64,000 nucleotides of DNA from contig JAJDAD010000034.1 of NCBI GenBank assembly GCA_029262055.1, forward strand, positions 1-64,000, read 5' to 3'. Position numbers and translations under genes: made by a program. The stretch is from Candidatus Zhuqueibacterota bacterium (GTDB taxonomy: Bacteria > Zhuqueibacterota > Zhuqueibacteria > Oceanimicrobiales > Oceanimicrobiaceae). Shown one piece after another: positions 29,911 to 37,136 of the stretch. Numbering within the stretch: the stretch's first letter is position 1; each line of letters begins with the position of its first letter. The notes beneath the pieces are model-generated. The model was not told the DNA's origin, did not search any database, and saw only the letters and a program-made list of their open reading frames with translations.

Positions 29911-30642
29911 ATGCCCAGAATTCCTAAATCACCTGAAGAGATTTTTGACAAGTTTTCTGAAGATGTTCAGTCAGTCTTCGGCGCTGAGTTACTGTCCATT
30001 TTACTTTTCGGCAGTGGCGCAAAAGGTGAATATGTAGCAGGTAAGTCAGACATCAATTTTTTGATTGTCCTGTCCAAAGACGGCGCGAATCGCCTGGAAA
30101 AAGCAATTCCGGTCGTAGAAAAATGGGGCAAAGTAGGTGTGGCCACGCCCCTGATCCTGACCAGAGAATACATTGATTCGGCTCTGGATACCTTCCCGAT
30201 AGAGTTTTTGGATATCAAAGAATTTCATCAGCTCGTCTTCGGGGAAAATCCGGTCGAACAAATCACAATTGACAAAGGCGATCTGCGGCGACAAATAGAG
30301 CGTGAGCTGCGTGGTAAGCTCGTCTATTTACGCACGGGCCTGCTTTCTTCTGGTAACGACAAAACCCGTCTGCTGCAAATGTTGTCTGCTTCGGTAAGTG
30401 CGTTCGTTCCGATTTTTGAGGGCTTGCTCCATTTGGAAGGTGAACCACTCACAAAGAACAGGTCGGATGTTTTTCGACGCACGGCGGCAGAGTTCAAGCT
30501 TAACGAATCTGTATTCGGTCAACTCATCCATGTCAAGAGCGGCGCCTGGCATGGCTCGATTGTGCAACTTCGTGAGCTGACTTCTTCGTACATTCAAGAG
30601 GTCGGGGTTCTGGTTGAGCGGGTTGACCAGATGGGGAAATGA
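29911..30642 (+). CDS. Nucleotidyltransferase-fold protein
   Basis: 243 residues. FGSGAKGEYVAGKSDINFLIV (split by family rule: GSGAKG then KSDINFLIV) is the MNT/Pol-beta signature, with the first carboxylate pair reduced to D-x-N, so catalytic ability is uncertain. The C-terminal half is helical, as in kanamycin-nucleotidyltransferase-like proteins. Lies between TPM and LemA genes in one operon; the partner or substrate is unknown. Confidence 0.7.
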   Translation: MPRIPKSPEEIFDKFSEDVQSVFGAELLSILLFGSGAKGEYVAGKSDINFLIVLSKDGANRLEKAIPVVEKWGKVGVATPLILTREYIDSALDTFPIEFLDIKEFHQLVFGENPVEQITIDKGDLRRQIERELRGKLVYLRTGLLSSGNDKTRLLQMLSASVSAFVPIFEGLLHLEGEPLTKNRSDVFRRTAAEFKLNESVFGQLIHVKSGAWHGSIVQLRELTSSYIQEVGVLVERVDQMGK

Positions 30643-30714: not shown

Positions 30715-31338
30715 ATGGGAAAAGGAATGAAGATATTCTTAGGCATTGTTGCGGTTCTTTTAGTACTTGGATTTATCGCGTACAAATCCGTAACCGGAAC
30801 GTACAATTCACTCGTTGTTCTAGACGAGGGGATCAACGGCGCCTGGTCGCAGGTCCAGAATGTCTACCAGCGGCGTTCTGACCTGATCCCAAACCTGGTG
30901 TCGACGGTCAAAGGGTATGCCTCCCATGAAAAGGAAACGCTGGAAGCGGTGGTGCAAGCGCGGGCCAGTGCAACACGGCCGCAGATAAATGCCGCGGGAA
31001 TACTGCAGAACCCACAGTTGTTCCAACAGTTTGAACAGGCACAAGGCCAACTCTCTTCAGCGTTGGGACGCCTGATGGTCGTGGTGGAGAAATACCCGGA
31101 TTTGAAAGCGAACGTTAACTTCGTCCGCCTGCAGGATGAGTTGGCGGGCACCGAAAACCGTATCACGGTTGAGCGTCGCCGTTTCAACCAAACGGTTCAG
31201 GGGTACAATCAGAAAGTGCGAACATTCCCAACCTTGCTTTTTGCCAATATGTTTGGCTTTCAACAGCGTCCTTATTTTGAGGCCAGTCCTGAAGCGCAAA
31301 CCGTACCAAAAGTCGATTTTTCGACCGGCAGCAATTGA
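30715..31338 (+). CDS. lemA: LemA family protein
   Basis: 207 residues. One N-terminal transmembrane helix, then the LemA core: YNSLVVLDEGINGAWSQVQNVYQRRSDLIPNLV (shown in parts), KETLEAVVQARA, LKANVNFVRLQDELAGTENRI and RRRFNQTVQGYN. A four-helix cytoplasmic or periplasmic domain of unknown biochemical role. Third in the TPM-nucleotidyltransferase-LemA cluster. Confidence 0.92.
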   Translation: MGKGMKIFLGIVAVLLVLGFIAYKSVTGTYNSLVVLDEGINGAWSQVQNVYQRRSDLIPNLVSTVKGYASHEKETLEAVVQARASATRPQINAAGILQNPQLFQQFEQAQGQLSSALGRLMVVVEKYPDLKANVNFVRLQDELAGTENRITVERRRFNQTVQGYNQKVRTFPTLLFANMFGFQQRPYFEASPEAQTVPKVDFSTGSN

Positions 31339-31480
31339 GTGGTGCCGGTATGATTGTTGCTATCCAACCTGCGTAAATCGTGGCAAATAACAATGGATTG
31401 GATATTCTAAGCTAGACGATTTGGATGTCAAGTGAACGTTCGTGTAACACTATTGTCCCGATGTACAGAGTTTTACCTCA

Positions 31481-31535
31481 GGCTACCATTGCAAAGCGGT
31501 GGCCTTTTTTCTTGGGCCCCTACGGACTCGGCCCA
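31481..31535 (+). terminator. Terminator between lemA and gdhA
   Basis: GGCTACC (31481-31487) pairs with GGTGGCC (31498-31504, one G-T) and six T follow. A second stem, TGGGCC/GGCCCA (31513-31518, 31530-31535), comes directly after. The 306-bp gap has no gene. Confidence 0.6.
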
Positions 31536-31629
31536 TTCAGTATGTTTTGTTACAAAGCCACAGCAACACGCTTCTCTCAGTTTCGAGAATGTATTTCCTA
31601 TTTTGAATGTTTCAACCGCATACAGCTAA

Positions 31630-33006
<1,377 letters not shown>

Positions 33007-33040
33007 AGCGTCGATCTTTCCGTAACAGTCTGCCCGGAAT

Positions 33041-33079
33041 CTGAGCGCTCTCAACGTCGATTTGTCGGTGAGCGCTCAG
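33041..33079. repeat. 10-bp perfect inverted repeat after gdhA
   Basis: CTGAGCGCTC (33041-33050) and GAGCGCTCAG (33070-33079) with a 19-nt loop, between gdhA and the receiver-PPDK gene. No T-tract; it could be a terminator-like stem or a binding site. Confidence 0.5.
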
Positions 33080-33107
33080 GTTTGGGCCTCCACAATCATG
33101 GATCCCA

Positions 33108-36100
33108 GTGCCGGAAAACAAGAGAAACTCAAAGTCAGCAGAGAGTGAAGGTCTAAGCCGGTTCAACCCGTATTGGTTGGAGCAGGGGTATGGTGCGCGC
33201 CTGCACCTGTTTCAAAACCTGATGCGGTACCGTATCCGAAGTGTCCTGCTGGTTTCGAGTCTGTACGACCTTTACCTTCTCGAGGAAGACGGCCGGCTCT
33301 ACGAACTCCTGCGTGAAGAGTACCAGGGGTTAAGCCTGACCCATATCCCGGAGTTGACGCGCGTTTCCAGTGGCAGAAAGGCACTTGAACTTGCGAAGAG
33401 CAGCAATCACTTCGATCTGATCATCGTTACGTTGCATGTCAAGGACATGCCGGTCCATAAGTTTGCGAAACGGGTCAGAGACGCCGGTCTCGATATACCT
33501 TTGGTGATTCTGGCCTATGACCATCGCGAACTTGCCGAGCTTTCCGTACGTCATGATTTGTCACTTTTCGATCAGGTCTTCGTCTGGCAGGGTGACTTCC
33601 GGCTCATCATAGCCATTATCAAGTACATCGAAGACAGGCGCAATATCAAGCATGATACGGAAACCGTCGGTGTTCAGACCATCATCCTGGTAGAGGATCG
33701 TGTACGGTACTACTCGTCTTTCCTACCACTCATTTATGTAGAACTGTTCAAGCAGGCTCAGCGGCTAATCTCCGAGGGGCTCAACCTTTCTCATAAATTC
33801 CTGCGCATGCGCGCACGCCCGAAAATTCTTCTCTGCACCAATTACGAAGAAGCCTGGGCATACTTCAGGAAATATCGAGAGCACGTCCTGGGTATCATTT
33901 CCGACATCAACTATCCCAGAAATGGAAAGCACGATCCGGAGGCAGGCCTGAAGTTTGCCCGCAATGTCAAGAGGAAGAGCTTTGACATTCCGATCTTGCT
34001 GCAGTCCAGTAATCCGGACAACGAGCAAAAAGCATTTGACCTGGGATGCTCATTCCTGCTGAAAGAGTCGTCCACGATGCTCAAGGAATTGCGCGGGTTT
34101 ATGATCGATCATTTCGGCTTCGGGGATTTCATTTTTCGTACGCGTGATGGCACCGAGGTCGGCCGGGCTGACGATTTGCGCAGCTTGGAAGAACGCCTGC
34201 GCAGTGTTCCGGATGAGAGCATCGCCTATCACAGCGAGCAGAATCACTTTTCAAATTGGCTAAAAGCGCGCACTGAGTTCTGGCTCGCCTATCAACTGCG
34301 ACCGGTGCACCTGGAGGATTTTGAATCTGTACAGGGGCTTCGTCAAGAGCTCATCGATTCTTTGCAGCAGTACAGAATAAACCGGCAGCGTGGCGTCATT
34401 ACTGATTTCAGTAAGGACACCTTTTATCCAATGAGCAGTTTCTCCAGAATCGGGGGAGGCTCTCTGGGCGGCAAGGCGCGCGGCTTGAGCTTTCTGAACA
34501 AGTTGATTTACAACTATAAGCTCAACAACAAGTTTGAAGGCGTAGAAGTACATGTCCCGCCTGCGATCGCGCTGGGTGCGGATGTCTTTGATCAGTTTAT
34601 TGACGAAAACGACTTGCAGCAGTTCGCCCTCAACTGTACGGATGACCAGGAGCTAAATCGTAGGTTCCTCGCAGCAGAACGATTTCCTCCCGACGCCTTG
34701 TTTCAACTAAAACAGTTTTTGGAGTTAATTCGGATTCCGCTGTCGGTCCGCTCTTCCAGCCTGCTGGAAGATTCCCAGTATTTTCCGTTTGCCGGCGTCT
34801 ATCAGACCCTCATGCTCCCCAACAACCACAGCAATGAAAATGTACGATTGTTTGAATTGCTTAACGCCATCAAGCGGGTTTACGCGTCCACCTACTCGCA
34901 GAGCGCCAAGGATTATTTCGAGGCGACTTCTTACCGGCTCGAAGAAGAGAAGATGGCCGTGGTCATTCAAAAGATGGTCGGGGCCCGGCATGGTAGACGA
35001 TTCTATCCCGATTTTGCTGGTGTGGCCAAGTCTTTTAACTTTTACCCAACCGCTCCACAGGAGGCCAGCGACGGCATCGTGTCTCTGGCCCTCGGTCTTG
35101 GCAAGACTGTGGTGGACGGTGGACAGCACGTCAAGTTTTGCCCGGCACACCCGCAAGTCCTGCCACAGTTCAACTCCATTGAGGTGGCATTACGCAATAA
35201 CCAGCAGGATTTTTATGCACTAAACCTCGACGGGAAAATCTCGGATCTAAGTGCTGCCGAAGACACGCTCATACAGAGCTTTACCCTGAAATCAGCAGAG
35301 GAAGACGGCACGCTGAAATATGCAGGTTCCACATATTCACCAGAAAACGATGCGATCTTCGATGGCATTTCGAGGTCGGGACAACGCATGGTGACGTTCG
35401 CCCCCATCCTGAAACACCGGTTGTTTCCTCTGCCTGCAATGATGCAGTACATTTTGGAAATGGGGAGTTGGGCAATGGGCGTACCAGTCGAAATCGAGTT
35501 TGCCGCTTCACTCTCGATACCGGAAGGCAGTAAACGGAAGCTGAGCCTTCTTCAAATGCGGCCATTGGTACAACGGCAAGACATGGGCAAATTAGAGGTT
35601 GACGAGGACAGGCAATCTCAGTTGATCTGCAGAAGTGATCAGATATTGGGTCATGGGTTTGTAGACGACGTTCACGACATCGTTGTGGTTGATCCGGATC
35701 GTTTCGATCGTCTCAAGAGCCATGAGGTGGCGCAGGAACTGACGGTTATGAACCACAAGCTTGTGGCGCGGCAGCGGCCCTATTTGCTGGTCGGCGTGGG
35801 AAGGTGGGGCTCATTGGATCCGTTTCTTGGTATCCCGATTCGCTGGGAGCAGATTTCCGGCGCCCGCGTGATCGTTGAGGCGGGTCTTAAGGATATGGTA
35901 GTAACCCCCTCACAAGGTTCCCATTTTTTCCACAACCTAACCTCATTTCAGGTGGGCTATTTTACCGTCGGCGCTCCTCGCGCTGACTCATTCATTGACT
36001 GGAATTGGCTATCTGCGCAACGTGCGGTTCGCAAACTGAAGTACGTCCGCCACTTACATTTCAAGCAGCCGGTTGTGGTCAAAATGAACAGCAGAAAACG

Positions 36101-36137
36101 TGTTGGTGTCATTCTGAAGCCTGACGGCAAAGCTTAA
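33108..36137 (+). CDS. Double receiver domain fused to PEP/pyruvate-binding (PPDK N-terminal) domain
   Basis: 1009 residues. Residues about 44-175 form a receiver-like domain whose phospho-acceptor is replaced by Thr (T108 in DLIIVT). Residues about 190-335 form a second receiver with an intact Asp (D266 in LGIISDINYP) and Lys (K319). After a linker, about 430-880 is a PPDK/PEP-synthase N-terminal ATP-grasp-type domain: GGGSLGGKARG (449-459) and SVRSSSLLEDSQYFPFAGVY (546-565). The phosphohistidine domain and the PEP-binding barrel of true PPDK are absent. Function is unknown; ATP-dependent phosphotransfer controlled by phosphorylation is a plausible inference. Start could be slightly downstream. 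Confidence 0.8.
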   Translation: MPENKRNSKSAESEGLSRFNPYWLEQGYGARLHLFQNLMRYRIRSVLLVSSLYDLYLLEEDGRLYELLREEYQGLSLTHIPELTRVSSGRKALELAKSSNHFDLIIVTLHVKDMPVHKFAKRVRDAGLDIPLVILAYDHRELAELSVRHDLSLFDQVFVWQGDFRLIIAIIKYIEDRRNIKHDTETVGVQTIILVEDRVRYYSSFLPLIYVELFKQAQRLISEGLNLSHKFLRMRARPKILLCTNYEEAWAYFRKYREHVLGIISDINYPRNGKHDPEAGLKFARNVKRKSFDIPILLQSSNPDNEQKAFDLGCSFLLKESSTMLKELRGFMIDHFGFGDFIFRTRDGTEVGRADDLRSLEERLRSVPDESIAYHSEQNHFSNWLKARTEFWLAYQLRPVHLEDFESVQGLRQELIDSLQQYRINRQRGVITDFSKDTFYPMSSFSRIGGGSLGGKARGLSFLNKLIYNYKLNNKFEGVEVHVPPAIALGADVFDQFIDENDLQQFALNCTDDQELNRRFLAAERFPPDALFQLKQFLELIRIPLSVRSSSLLEDSQYFPFAGVYQTLMLPNNHSNENVRLFELLNAIKRVYASTYSQSAKDYFEATSYRLEEEKMAVVIQKMVGARHGRRFYPDFAGVAKSFNFYPTAPQEASDGIVSLALGLGKTVVDGGQHVKFCPAHPQVLPQFNSIEVALRNNQQDFYALNLDGKISDLSAAEDTLIQSFTLKSAEEDGTLKYAGSTYSPENDAIFDGISRSGQRMVTFAPILKHRLFPLPAMMQYILEMGSWAMGVPVEIEFAASLSIPEGSKRKLSLLQMRPLVQRQDMGKLEVDEDRQSQLICRSDQILGHGFVDDVHDIVVVDPDRFDRLKSHEVAQELTVMNHKLVARQRPYLLVGVGRWGSLDPFLGIPIRWEQISGARVIVEAGLKDMVVTPSQGSHFFHNLTSFQVGYFTVGAPRADSFIDWNWLSAQRAVRKLKYVRHLHFKQPVVVKMNSRKRVGVILKPDGKA

Positions 36138-36206
36138 TCGCTCACATCTCTCACTTCATGAATAGCAATTACTGATAGGTTTTACAGAAGTTAAGCAAAT
36201 TCCCTC

Positions 36207-36218
36207 TCCCGGCCGGGA
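36207..36218. repeat. 12-bp perfect palindrome
   Basis: TCCCGGCCGGGA, extended by CCCTC and GGGG on its sides, in the gap between the receiver-PPDK gene and the convergent copper cluster. Likely a terminator-type stem, although no T-run follows. Confidence 0.4.
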
Positions 36219-36284
36219 GGGGATAACACATGGAAACCGGATGCCTCAGACGGAGGAAACCAAGTGAGAAATATTGGTTAATCA

Positions 36285-36306
36285 TAAAACGGCAGCAATC
36301 GCTGCT
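36285..36306 (-). terminator. Terminator of the copper/nitrate cluster
   Basis: Minus strand GCAGC (36305-36301), 4-nt loop, GCTGC (36296-36292), followed by C, G and TTTTA, 15 bp past the NrtS-like stop. Confidence 0.5.
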
Positions 36307-36319
36307 ACCGGTCCGCACT

Positions 36320-36565
36320 TCATTCCTCTTGTTTCTTGTTTTGCGCATGTGACCTTTGCAGGGTCTGGACGCTTGATAGCGTCGATACGATGTAGGGTAC
36401 CATGAACGTCAGCCCCATTTTTGCCAACATGGTGGTGCTGACCTGACCGTACAGCAATGCGTCTGCATGATTGATTATGATCAGAATTGGCCCTACCACG
36501 ACCGCGTAGCCGAGTGCTCTTTTTACCACTGATGGTCGCAACGCATATTTGAGCTTCTCTTTCAT
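36320..36565 (-). CDS. nrtS: NrtS-like small membrane protein (nitrate/nitrite transporter)
   Basis: 81 residues with two transmembrane helices: RALGYAVVVGPILIIINHADALLYG and a second around MGLTFMVPYIVST. The order A-L-VG-IL--INH-DA followed by K-GLT--VPY-VST is the NrtS pattern, a small nitrate/nitrite uptake protein described from marine cyanobacteria. Here it is the last gene of a copper-delivery cluster, so a nitrate role is inferred from family only. Confidence 0.65.
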   Translation of the reverse strand: MKEKLKYALRPSVVKRALGYAVVVGPILIIINHADALLYGQVSTTMLAKMGLTFMVPYIVSTLSSVQTLQRSHAQNKKQEE

Positions 36566-36614
36566 GTCACGGGACCTTCTTCAGTGAGCATTTGTTAGTA
36601 ATTCCGGCAAAATA

Positions 36615-37136
36615 CTACGGAGTGCGGACCGTTGATTTTGTCACAATTTTTCCGCTCAGCTCAAACTCAAATTCAAGCTCAAACACCATGCCGGGTGTCA
36701 GTGACTCGTTCAGGCCGAGCAACATGATGTGATAATCCGCTGGCTTGAATTCAATTTTTGCGCCCGGTGGAATCGTGACGCCATCCTTTATTGGGCGCAT
36801 GGTCATCCGGTCATCCTGCATAACCGTACGGTGTATTTCCGCCACGGTACAAACCGGTGAAGAAACCGCCACCAGGCGGTCCGGGCTGCCCCCGCGATTG
36901 TGAAGGTCAAAGTAGACGACGCCGTTCACCTGCATTTGAGCAGAAGAGTGCCCGGCGTGTTCACCTGAGTGCTGCATGGTTTCAGCAGCTCTGGACCAGA
37001 CGTTTTCTACGGCAATGGCCGGAGCGCCCGCTTTCTGGTCCAGGCATCCGGATGCAGTAAACATGGCTGCAATCACCACATACTGGACAATCCGGGCAAC
37101 TGCTCTGCCCCTGACTTGTTTTTCATTCATTCTCAT
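36615..37136 (-). CDS. Periplasmic copper chaperone PCu(A)C lipoprotein
   Basis: 173 residues; ATG 37136 has GGAG 6 nt upstream. Lipobox TASGC. The copper motif H-x-M...M-x-M...H-x-M appears as AEIHRTVMQDDRMTMRP and YHIMLLGL; an extra His/Met-rich stretch (MQHSGEHAGHSSAQMQ) precedes it. Delivers Cu(I) to the CuA site of cytochrome oxidase together with SCO proteins. Downstream of the SCO1 gene by 50 bp. Confidence 0.9.
   Translation of the reverse strand: MRMNEKQVRGRAVARIVQYVVIAAMFTASGCLDQKAGAPAIAVENVWSRAAETMQHSGEHAGHSSAQMQVNGVVYFDLHNRGGSPDRLVAVSSPVCTVAEIHRTVMQDDRMTMRPIKDGVTIPPGAKIEFKPADYHIMLLGLNESLTPGMVFELEFEFELSGKIVTKSTVRTP

Follow-up and report, generated by a model that had tools for sequence, protein, structure and literature searches.

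A receiver–ATP-grasp protein encoded beside glutamate dehydrogenase in two bacterial phyla is a candidate phosphotransfer regulator of its neighbour

In this work we describe a family of bacterial proteins in which response-regulator receivers are joined to a PEP-synthase-type ATP-grasp core, and whose genes usually lie beside a gene for glutamate dehydrogenase (GDH). The starting point was an open reading frame directly downstream of gdhA in the window, the whole stretch of 64,000 nucleotides that was analysed. A functional link of the family to GDH is strongly supported, and the gdhA neighbour is the strongest evidence for our reading of the protein. Since receivers and a PEP-synthase-type engine are joined in a protein whose relatives usually adjoin a GDH gene, we propose a switch acting on GDH: the protein would be a regulatory phosphotransfer protein dedicated to the neighbouring dehydrogenase, with its receivers gating an ATP-grasp/histidine engine, a reading that we hold to be evenly poised between right and wrong. 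The features concerned, in window positions, are as follows.

31645..33006, + strand: gdhA, glutamate dehydrogenase, 453 aa, the conserved upstream neighbour (ELFV_dehydrog, E 1e-82)
33032..33087, + strand: hairpin in the 101-bp gap between gdhA and the F gene (10-bp perfect inverted repeat, 33041-33050/33070-33079)
33108..36137, + strand: receiver-receiver-DUF5752-like-ATP-grasp-C-terminal protein ("F type"), 1009 aa, GTG start (ORF call, Pfam, model)
33234..33644, + strand: receiver 1, residues 43-179, degenerate, with Thr108 at the Asp position (fold Z ~14)
33669..34133, + strand: receiver 2, residues 188-342, with the site E196/D197, D266, S300 and K319 intact (fold Z 14.4)
34164..34433, + strand: DUF5752-like linker, residues 353-442 (Pfam, E 5.5e-6 and E 3.3e-8)
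34404..35579, + strand: PPDK/PEP-synthase-type ATP-grasp domain, residues 433-824, with K456, R548, T567, E797, Q816 and R818 (PPDK_N, fold)
35583..36134, + strand: C-terminal domain, residues 826-1009, candidate divergent phosphohistidine swivel domain, with R899, E924 and H939
35922..35924, + strand: His939 codon, candidate phospho-acceptor, kept in 130/133 core proteins

Near-full-length relatives in many genomes rule out a chance ORF or an annotation artefact, and an alignment of 57 near-full-length F-type sequences (that of the window among them, and a few genes represented twice) spans the full ORF, the relatives being 41-69% identical. In the window's phylum 49 of 69 genomes have a family match at E<=0.001 (three to five of the weak matches, to canonical PEP synthases, were left out of the member counts by form given below); in a second phylum, to which the genome G078 with the Ignavibacteriaceae contig L030 belongs, 49 of 296 have one at E<=1e-20. 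Further members belong to the Myxococcota, Elusimicrobiota and Acidobacteriota. Four architectures share the core. The F form is receiver-receiver-core, as in the window; the S form is the receiver-less core alone (~585 aa); the N form joins a different N-terminus to the core (767-1086 aa) and sometimes carries a C-terminal nucleotidyltransferase; and the C, or split, form consists of a ~550-aa core and a separate ~480-aa receiver protein encoded in the neighbouring gene. With four truncated proteins dropped and a few genes represented twice, these make up a set of 133 core proteins (F 68, S 21, N 37, C 7). The N-terminal part of the N form matches no Pfam family and may be a GAF-like sensor. 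At all seven split loci the receiver gene adjoins the core gene, a similar DUF5752-like stretch sits in the receiver protein, and the acidic pair, Asp and Lys of the second receiver are kept in 7/7. Receivers and core, either parts of one chain or products of adjoining genes, evidently work together.

The position of the F gene after gdhA, offered as a hint by the sequence-only reading of the same DNA, reflects a linkage that is strongly conserved in two phyla. In the window the F gene lies 111 bp from the ELFV domain of gdhA. Among the GDH matches listed for the window's phylum, one falls within 1.5 kb of 31/36 F genes (a count that includes some partial genes), 8/11 S genes, 6/21 N genes and 0/6 C genes, and within 5 kb of 13/21 N and 2/6 C genes; in the second phylum the 1.5-kb counts are 39/47 for F, 3/4 for a divergent F group, 9/11 for S and 7/11 for N. 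Over both phyla, 13 of 83 F genes, about one in six, have no listed GDH match within 1.5 kb, and for the members from Myxococcota, Elusimicrobiota and Acidobacteriota no GDH was found in the flanking DNA covered. As a control, none of the 150 PEP-utilizers_C genes (canonical dikinase/EI) listed from the same 69 genomes lies within 5 kb of a listed GDH match, and the chance rate of GDH proximity is ~0.4% per gene. Where an upstream GDH could be labelled, it is on the same strand as the F gene in 54/55 cases.

The partner enzymes are of several kinds. Besides the 453-aa gdhA type there is a form of 446 aa, which shares 65% identity with a 453-aa one; two shorter kinds, of 417 and 428 aa, share ~30% identity with gdhA; and an NAD-GDH of 952 aa carries Pfam domains of its own. 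The receiver-less and split forms are found by such other GDHs, ~30% identical or larger. One five-gene cluster (L128:1725-12413) has the order GDH446-F-GDH453-F-GDH417, dehydrogenases alternating with receiver-dikinase proteins. In a tree of 66 F proteins (window left out; 19 of the 66 without a labelled upstream GDH, partly from contig ends), one clade has 11 A446, no A453 and six unlabelled upstream positions, and the other 29 A453, one A446 and five unlabelled. The upstream-GDH label changes 15 times over this tree, compared with a mean of 28.2 when labels are shuffled, and none of 200 shuffles was as low. At loci with both copies each F paralogue groups with its own GDH type, so that dehydrogenase and F protein appear to have been inherited largely as pairs. 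What such neighbourhoods show is a functional link, not the identity of a substrate.

Other genes of the window were rejected as partners: the NTP_transf_2 gene at 29911, LemA, TPM, endonuclease III, SCO1 and PCuAC each recur at 1-3 of 57 loci compared (L002-L058, many with short flanks), against 45/57 for gdhA. The first of these (29911-30642, ~1 kb upstream of gdhA) encodes a 243-aa protein in which Asn replaces the second Asp of the DxD motif, and is probably unrelated to the F gene because it is near only 2/57 relatives. A role in defence was likewise set aside, a single weak PADLOC match (E 0.0097) having been obtained. The hairpin between gdhA and the F gene (fold z -2.56, with 2/200 shuffles as stable) has no T run and could bring about differential expression of gdhA and the F gene; an Rfam scan of 31300-36700 returned no match.

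The S, N and C forms also point to regulation. The S and N genes overlap or nearly do so, the gaps in 18 pairs being -4 in nine, -7 in five and -82, -14, -8 and +6 in the rest (an L101 pairing with a gap of -7314, a mis-pairing, was left out). A nucleotidyltransferase motif (GS...DID) ends 17 of the 21 N proteins longer than 1000 aa (e.g. L131:6374-9565), GRWGS-motif matches in L111 and L125 not being taken as this motif, and Pfam NTP_transf_2 was found in both long N proteins scanned. Beside 13 of 36 N genes lies an opposite-strand gene homologous to a single metallophosphoesterase gene, Pfam Metallophos having been verified on one of them. N-form genes that bear the motif often have such a phosphoesterase-like gene beside them, next to GDH and the S form, and this combination at a GDH locus is reminiscent of the covalent control of glutamine synthetase. 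A lone receiver protein (L111:10508-11002; PF00072, E 1.7e-21) is encoded directly upstream of one GDH-S-N operon. At L101 (2403-3980), L103, L105 and L107 the split form has in its vicinity a glutamate-synthase-like protein of 525 aa (PF01645), which is another enzyme of the glutamate node, and some split-form loci are near genes for redox-complex subunits.

A Pfam scan of the 1009-aa protein returned PPDK_N at residues 452-833 (E 2e-38), DUF5752 at 353-442 and a Response_reg match at 229-315 that falls below the gathering score (E 1.1e-4). The full-length AlphaFold2 model, built from a 38-sequence alignment, has a mean pLDDT of 81.9 and a pTM of 0.66, and its structural alignment with VIA is the source of the fold Z scores given here for the receivers and the ATP-grasp domain. 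Both receiver assignments of the sequence-only reading, one degenerate with Thr108 and one intact with D266 and K319, are borne out by these folds and by conservation across 67 F-type sequences (de-duplicated, window included). Position 108 is Thr in 58, Met in six, Ser in two, Trp in one and Asp in none. In receiver 2, E196, D266 and K319 are kept in 67/67 and D197 in 64/67 (Asn in three), and position 300 is Ser or Thr throughout. Receiver 2 therefore combines the fold, acid pair, Asp, Thr/Ser and Lys of a response regulator, and receiver 1 lacks the Asp.

The PEP/pyruvate-binding ATP-grasp-like domain recognised earlier is equally well founded, since besides the PPDK_N match its fold resembles PEP synthase (2ols, Z 26.4), rifampin phosphotransferase (5hv1, Z 26.2) and PPDK (1dik, Z 19.1). 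K456, R548, T567, E797 and Q816 are present in 67/67 F-type sequences and R818 in 66/67; K456 and R548 are invariant in all 133 core proteins across the four architectures, and R818 is replaced by Thr in 7/7 C-form proteins. In an alignment with rifampin phosphotransferase, R548 and T567 fall opposite Arg117 and Thr136; K456, which lies outside that alignment, we take to be the equivalent of its Lys22 through the shared GGK motif, and E797 is presumably the counterpart of its Glu297. In that enzyme activity needs Lys22, Arg117 and Thr136, and Glu297 is non-essential (PMC4844700). Loss of the ATP site, the weak point singled out by the sequence-only reading, is ruled out by this conservation across 67 F-type and 133 core proteins, the site being intact in all relatives.

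In joining receivers to a dikinase-type nucleotide domain that reading was correct, but it overlooked the short DUF5752-like stretch and the C-terminal domain. It had further described the protein as lacking both the PEP and the phosphohistidine domains. The former holds: PEP-utilizers_C (the barrel, PF02896) has no Pfam match at E<=1 in the 1009-aa protein, and ~185 residues remain after the ATP-grasp domain. An ordinary PEP synthase is ruled out, the protein having no barrel and separate PEP-utilizers_C genes occurring elsewhere in the same genome (G000:C74, G000:C2). The latter is doubtful, however, because although PEP-utilizers (the His domain) also has no match at E<=1, what follows the ATP-grasp domain is a separate domain with swivel-type best structural matches and a near-invariant histidine, His939.

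This C-terminal domain includes a block (GRWGSxDPxLGIP...E...PSxGSHFFxN) that is among the best conserved in the protein, and across the four architectures its identity falls to 20-30%; the only exceptions to His939 among the 133 core proteins are two gaps and one Tyr, all in the N form. Modelled alone, residues 826-1009 reach a pLDDT of 87.6 and a pTM of 0.87, and the top five VIA matches are 2e28 (Z 6.9), the extra C-terminal domain of a Bacillus pyruvate kinase, and 2fm4 (6.4), 5lu4 (6.3), 1vbg (6.3) and 5jvj (6.0), all of the PPDK phosphoryl carrier domain; a sixth, of the unrelated GroEL-type chaperonin fold, lies just under them at Z 5.8. His939 is at the start of the second helix in this model (in the full-length model it falls within a low-confidence stretch), and we take this placement and the order of strands and helices to be those of a swivel domain. 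Foldseek gave no match to the domain model at E<=0.001, profile comparison with 13 real PEP-synthase swivel domains gave a probability of 0.3%, the best match among PDB sequences was at E 0.39, and no Pfam family, PF00391 included, matched at E<=10. Because the VIA scores are modest and Foldseek and profile comparison lend no backing, we regard the domain only as a candidate divergent phosphohistidine domain, an identification that we hold to be somewhat more likely than not. The protein may thus have a phospho-carrier after all.

On the mechanism that we propose, the ATP-grasp domain would bind ATP and phosphorylate a carrier histidine, most likely His939 of the swivel-like domain, in a step modelled on PEP synthase, PPDK and rifampin phosphotransferase. 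With no pyruvate/PEP barrel available as acceptor, the phosphate would pass to a protein, of which the adjacent GDH is the likeliest, or else a phosphorylation-dependent contact would set GDH activity. The intact receiver would take phosphate at D266 from a histidine kinase and gate the engine, and the degenerate receiver 1 may be a dimerisation or docking part.

The same GDH linkage would be expected of a nucleotide-sensing pseudo-kinase or allosteric subunit, which would sense ATP/ADP with its ATP-grasp domain and alter GDH activity by binding to the enzyme, without phosphotransfer. The missing acceptor barrel agrees with this, as does the putative standing of a histidine domain to which Foldseek and profile comparison give no match; however, the triphosphate-positioning residues K456, R548, T/S567 and E797 are kept together with His939 in four architectures, even as C-terminal identity falls to the level given above, and such conservation exceeds the needs of a pure binding role. 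We consider this alternative unlikely. It is quite unlikely, in our view, that the family consists of metabolic enzymes, that is, ATP-dependent phosphotransferases or ligases acting on a small-molecule metabolite of the GDH reaction (2-oxoglutarate, glutamate or ammonia). Characterised PPDK_N enzymes such as PEP synthase, PPDK, rifampin phosphotransferase and the prodigiosin ligases do act on small molecules, and the split form has a glutamate-synthase-like gene nearby, but the ~585-aa S form has no substrate-binding barrel or equivalent domain, and fusion to receivers or other N-terminal modules fits regulation better.

No histidine kinase was seen among the conserved neighbour gene clusters of the family loci, which is compatible with a self-contained phosphorelay: the ATP-grasp/histidine engine would load D266 in cis, replacing the kinase, and phospho-D266 would be the output to GDH or another partner. 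Receivers in general accept phosphate from phosphohistidine, and an intact one is present in the same chain, or in the adjacent gene of the split form; nevertheless receivers are absent from the chains of the S and N forms, and we judge this scheme decidedly unlikely. That the gene merely shares the gdhA promoter, with no functional tie to GDH, is scarcely credible: vertical inheritance can preserve neighbours and some relatives are away from GDH, yet different GDH kinds are paired with different architectures, duplication has occurred as pairs, the linkage spans two phyla, none of the 150 control genes shows it, and the other window neighbours are not conserved.

Our preferred reading, a phosphotransfer regulator dedicated to GDH, brings together parts of known kinds, whose combination and dedication to GDH appear new to us. 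With PEP synthase and PPDK the F protein shares the PPDK_N ATP-grasp domain and its catalytic residues, and its C-terminal domain stands where the PPDK phosphoryl carrier domain does and bears a weak structural resemblance to it; it differs from them in having no PEP/pyruvate barrel or PEP-utilizers Pfam match, in the receivers in front, and in its pairing with GDH. With rifampin phosphotransferase it shares the ATP-grasp fold, the aligned Arg and Thr and a candidate histidine near the C-terminus; unlike that enzyme it has no rifamycin-binding domain, and its C-terminal domain has no sequence match. Because the C-terminal domain directly follows the ATP-grasp domain, there is no room for the ~430-residue rifamycin-binding domain. 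In the fold and phospho-site of receiver 2 it resembles response regulators with enzymatic outputs, and in its two successive receivers PleD (Foldseek ranks 3-11), but its output is a dikinase-type ATP-grasp core and its first receiver lacks the Asp. Dedicated protein control of a glutamate-node enzyme is known from regulators of GDH or glutamine synthetase such as GarA/OdhI, Thermus APRTh and GlnD/GlnE, and in the EI-Ntr of the nitrogen PTS a sensor domain is linked with a phosphohistidine carrier; to our knowledge none of these has an ATP-grasp dikinase core or a receiver fusion. No description of the family or of its GDH link was found in the full-text literature (open-licence PMC papers), and to that extent the earlier statement that there is no characterised example stands.

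A bolder possibility, which we hold to be rather unlikely, is that the family as a whole represents ATP-grasp-based phosphohistidine signalling. In this reading a barrel-less dikinase core, equipped for sensing with receivers or a different N-terminal module and in some cases with a nucleotidyltransferase, one per enzyme, would reversibly control GDHs as the counterpart of GlnD/GlnE and nitrogen-PTS control of the glutamine branch.

GDH is a meeting point of carbon and nitrogen metabolism, and in most bacteria beyond a few models little is known of its control. A conserved partner of several GDH kinds, found in two phyla with outliers elsewhere, is a concrete candidate for a GDH regulator. If the proposal is right, two-component systems would have acquired a signalling output made from the ATP-grasp machinery of PEP synthase, and a function would be gained for part of the proteins now annotated merely as "PEP/pyruvate-binding domain".
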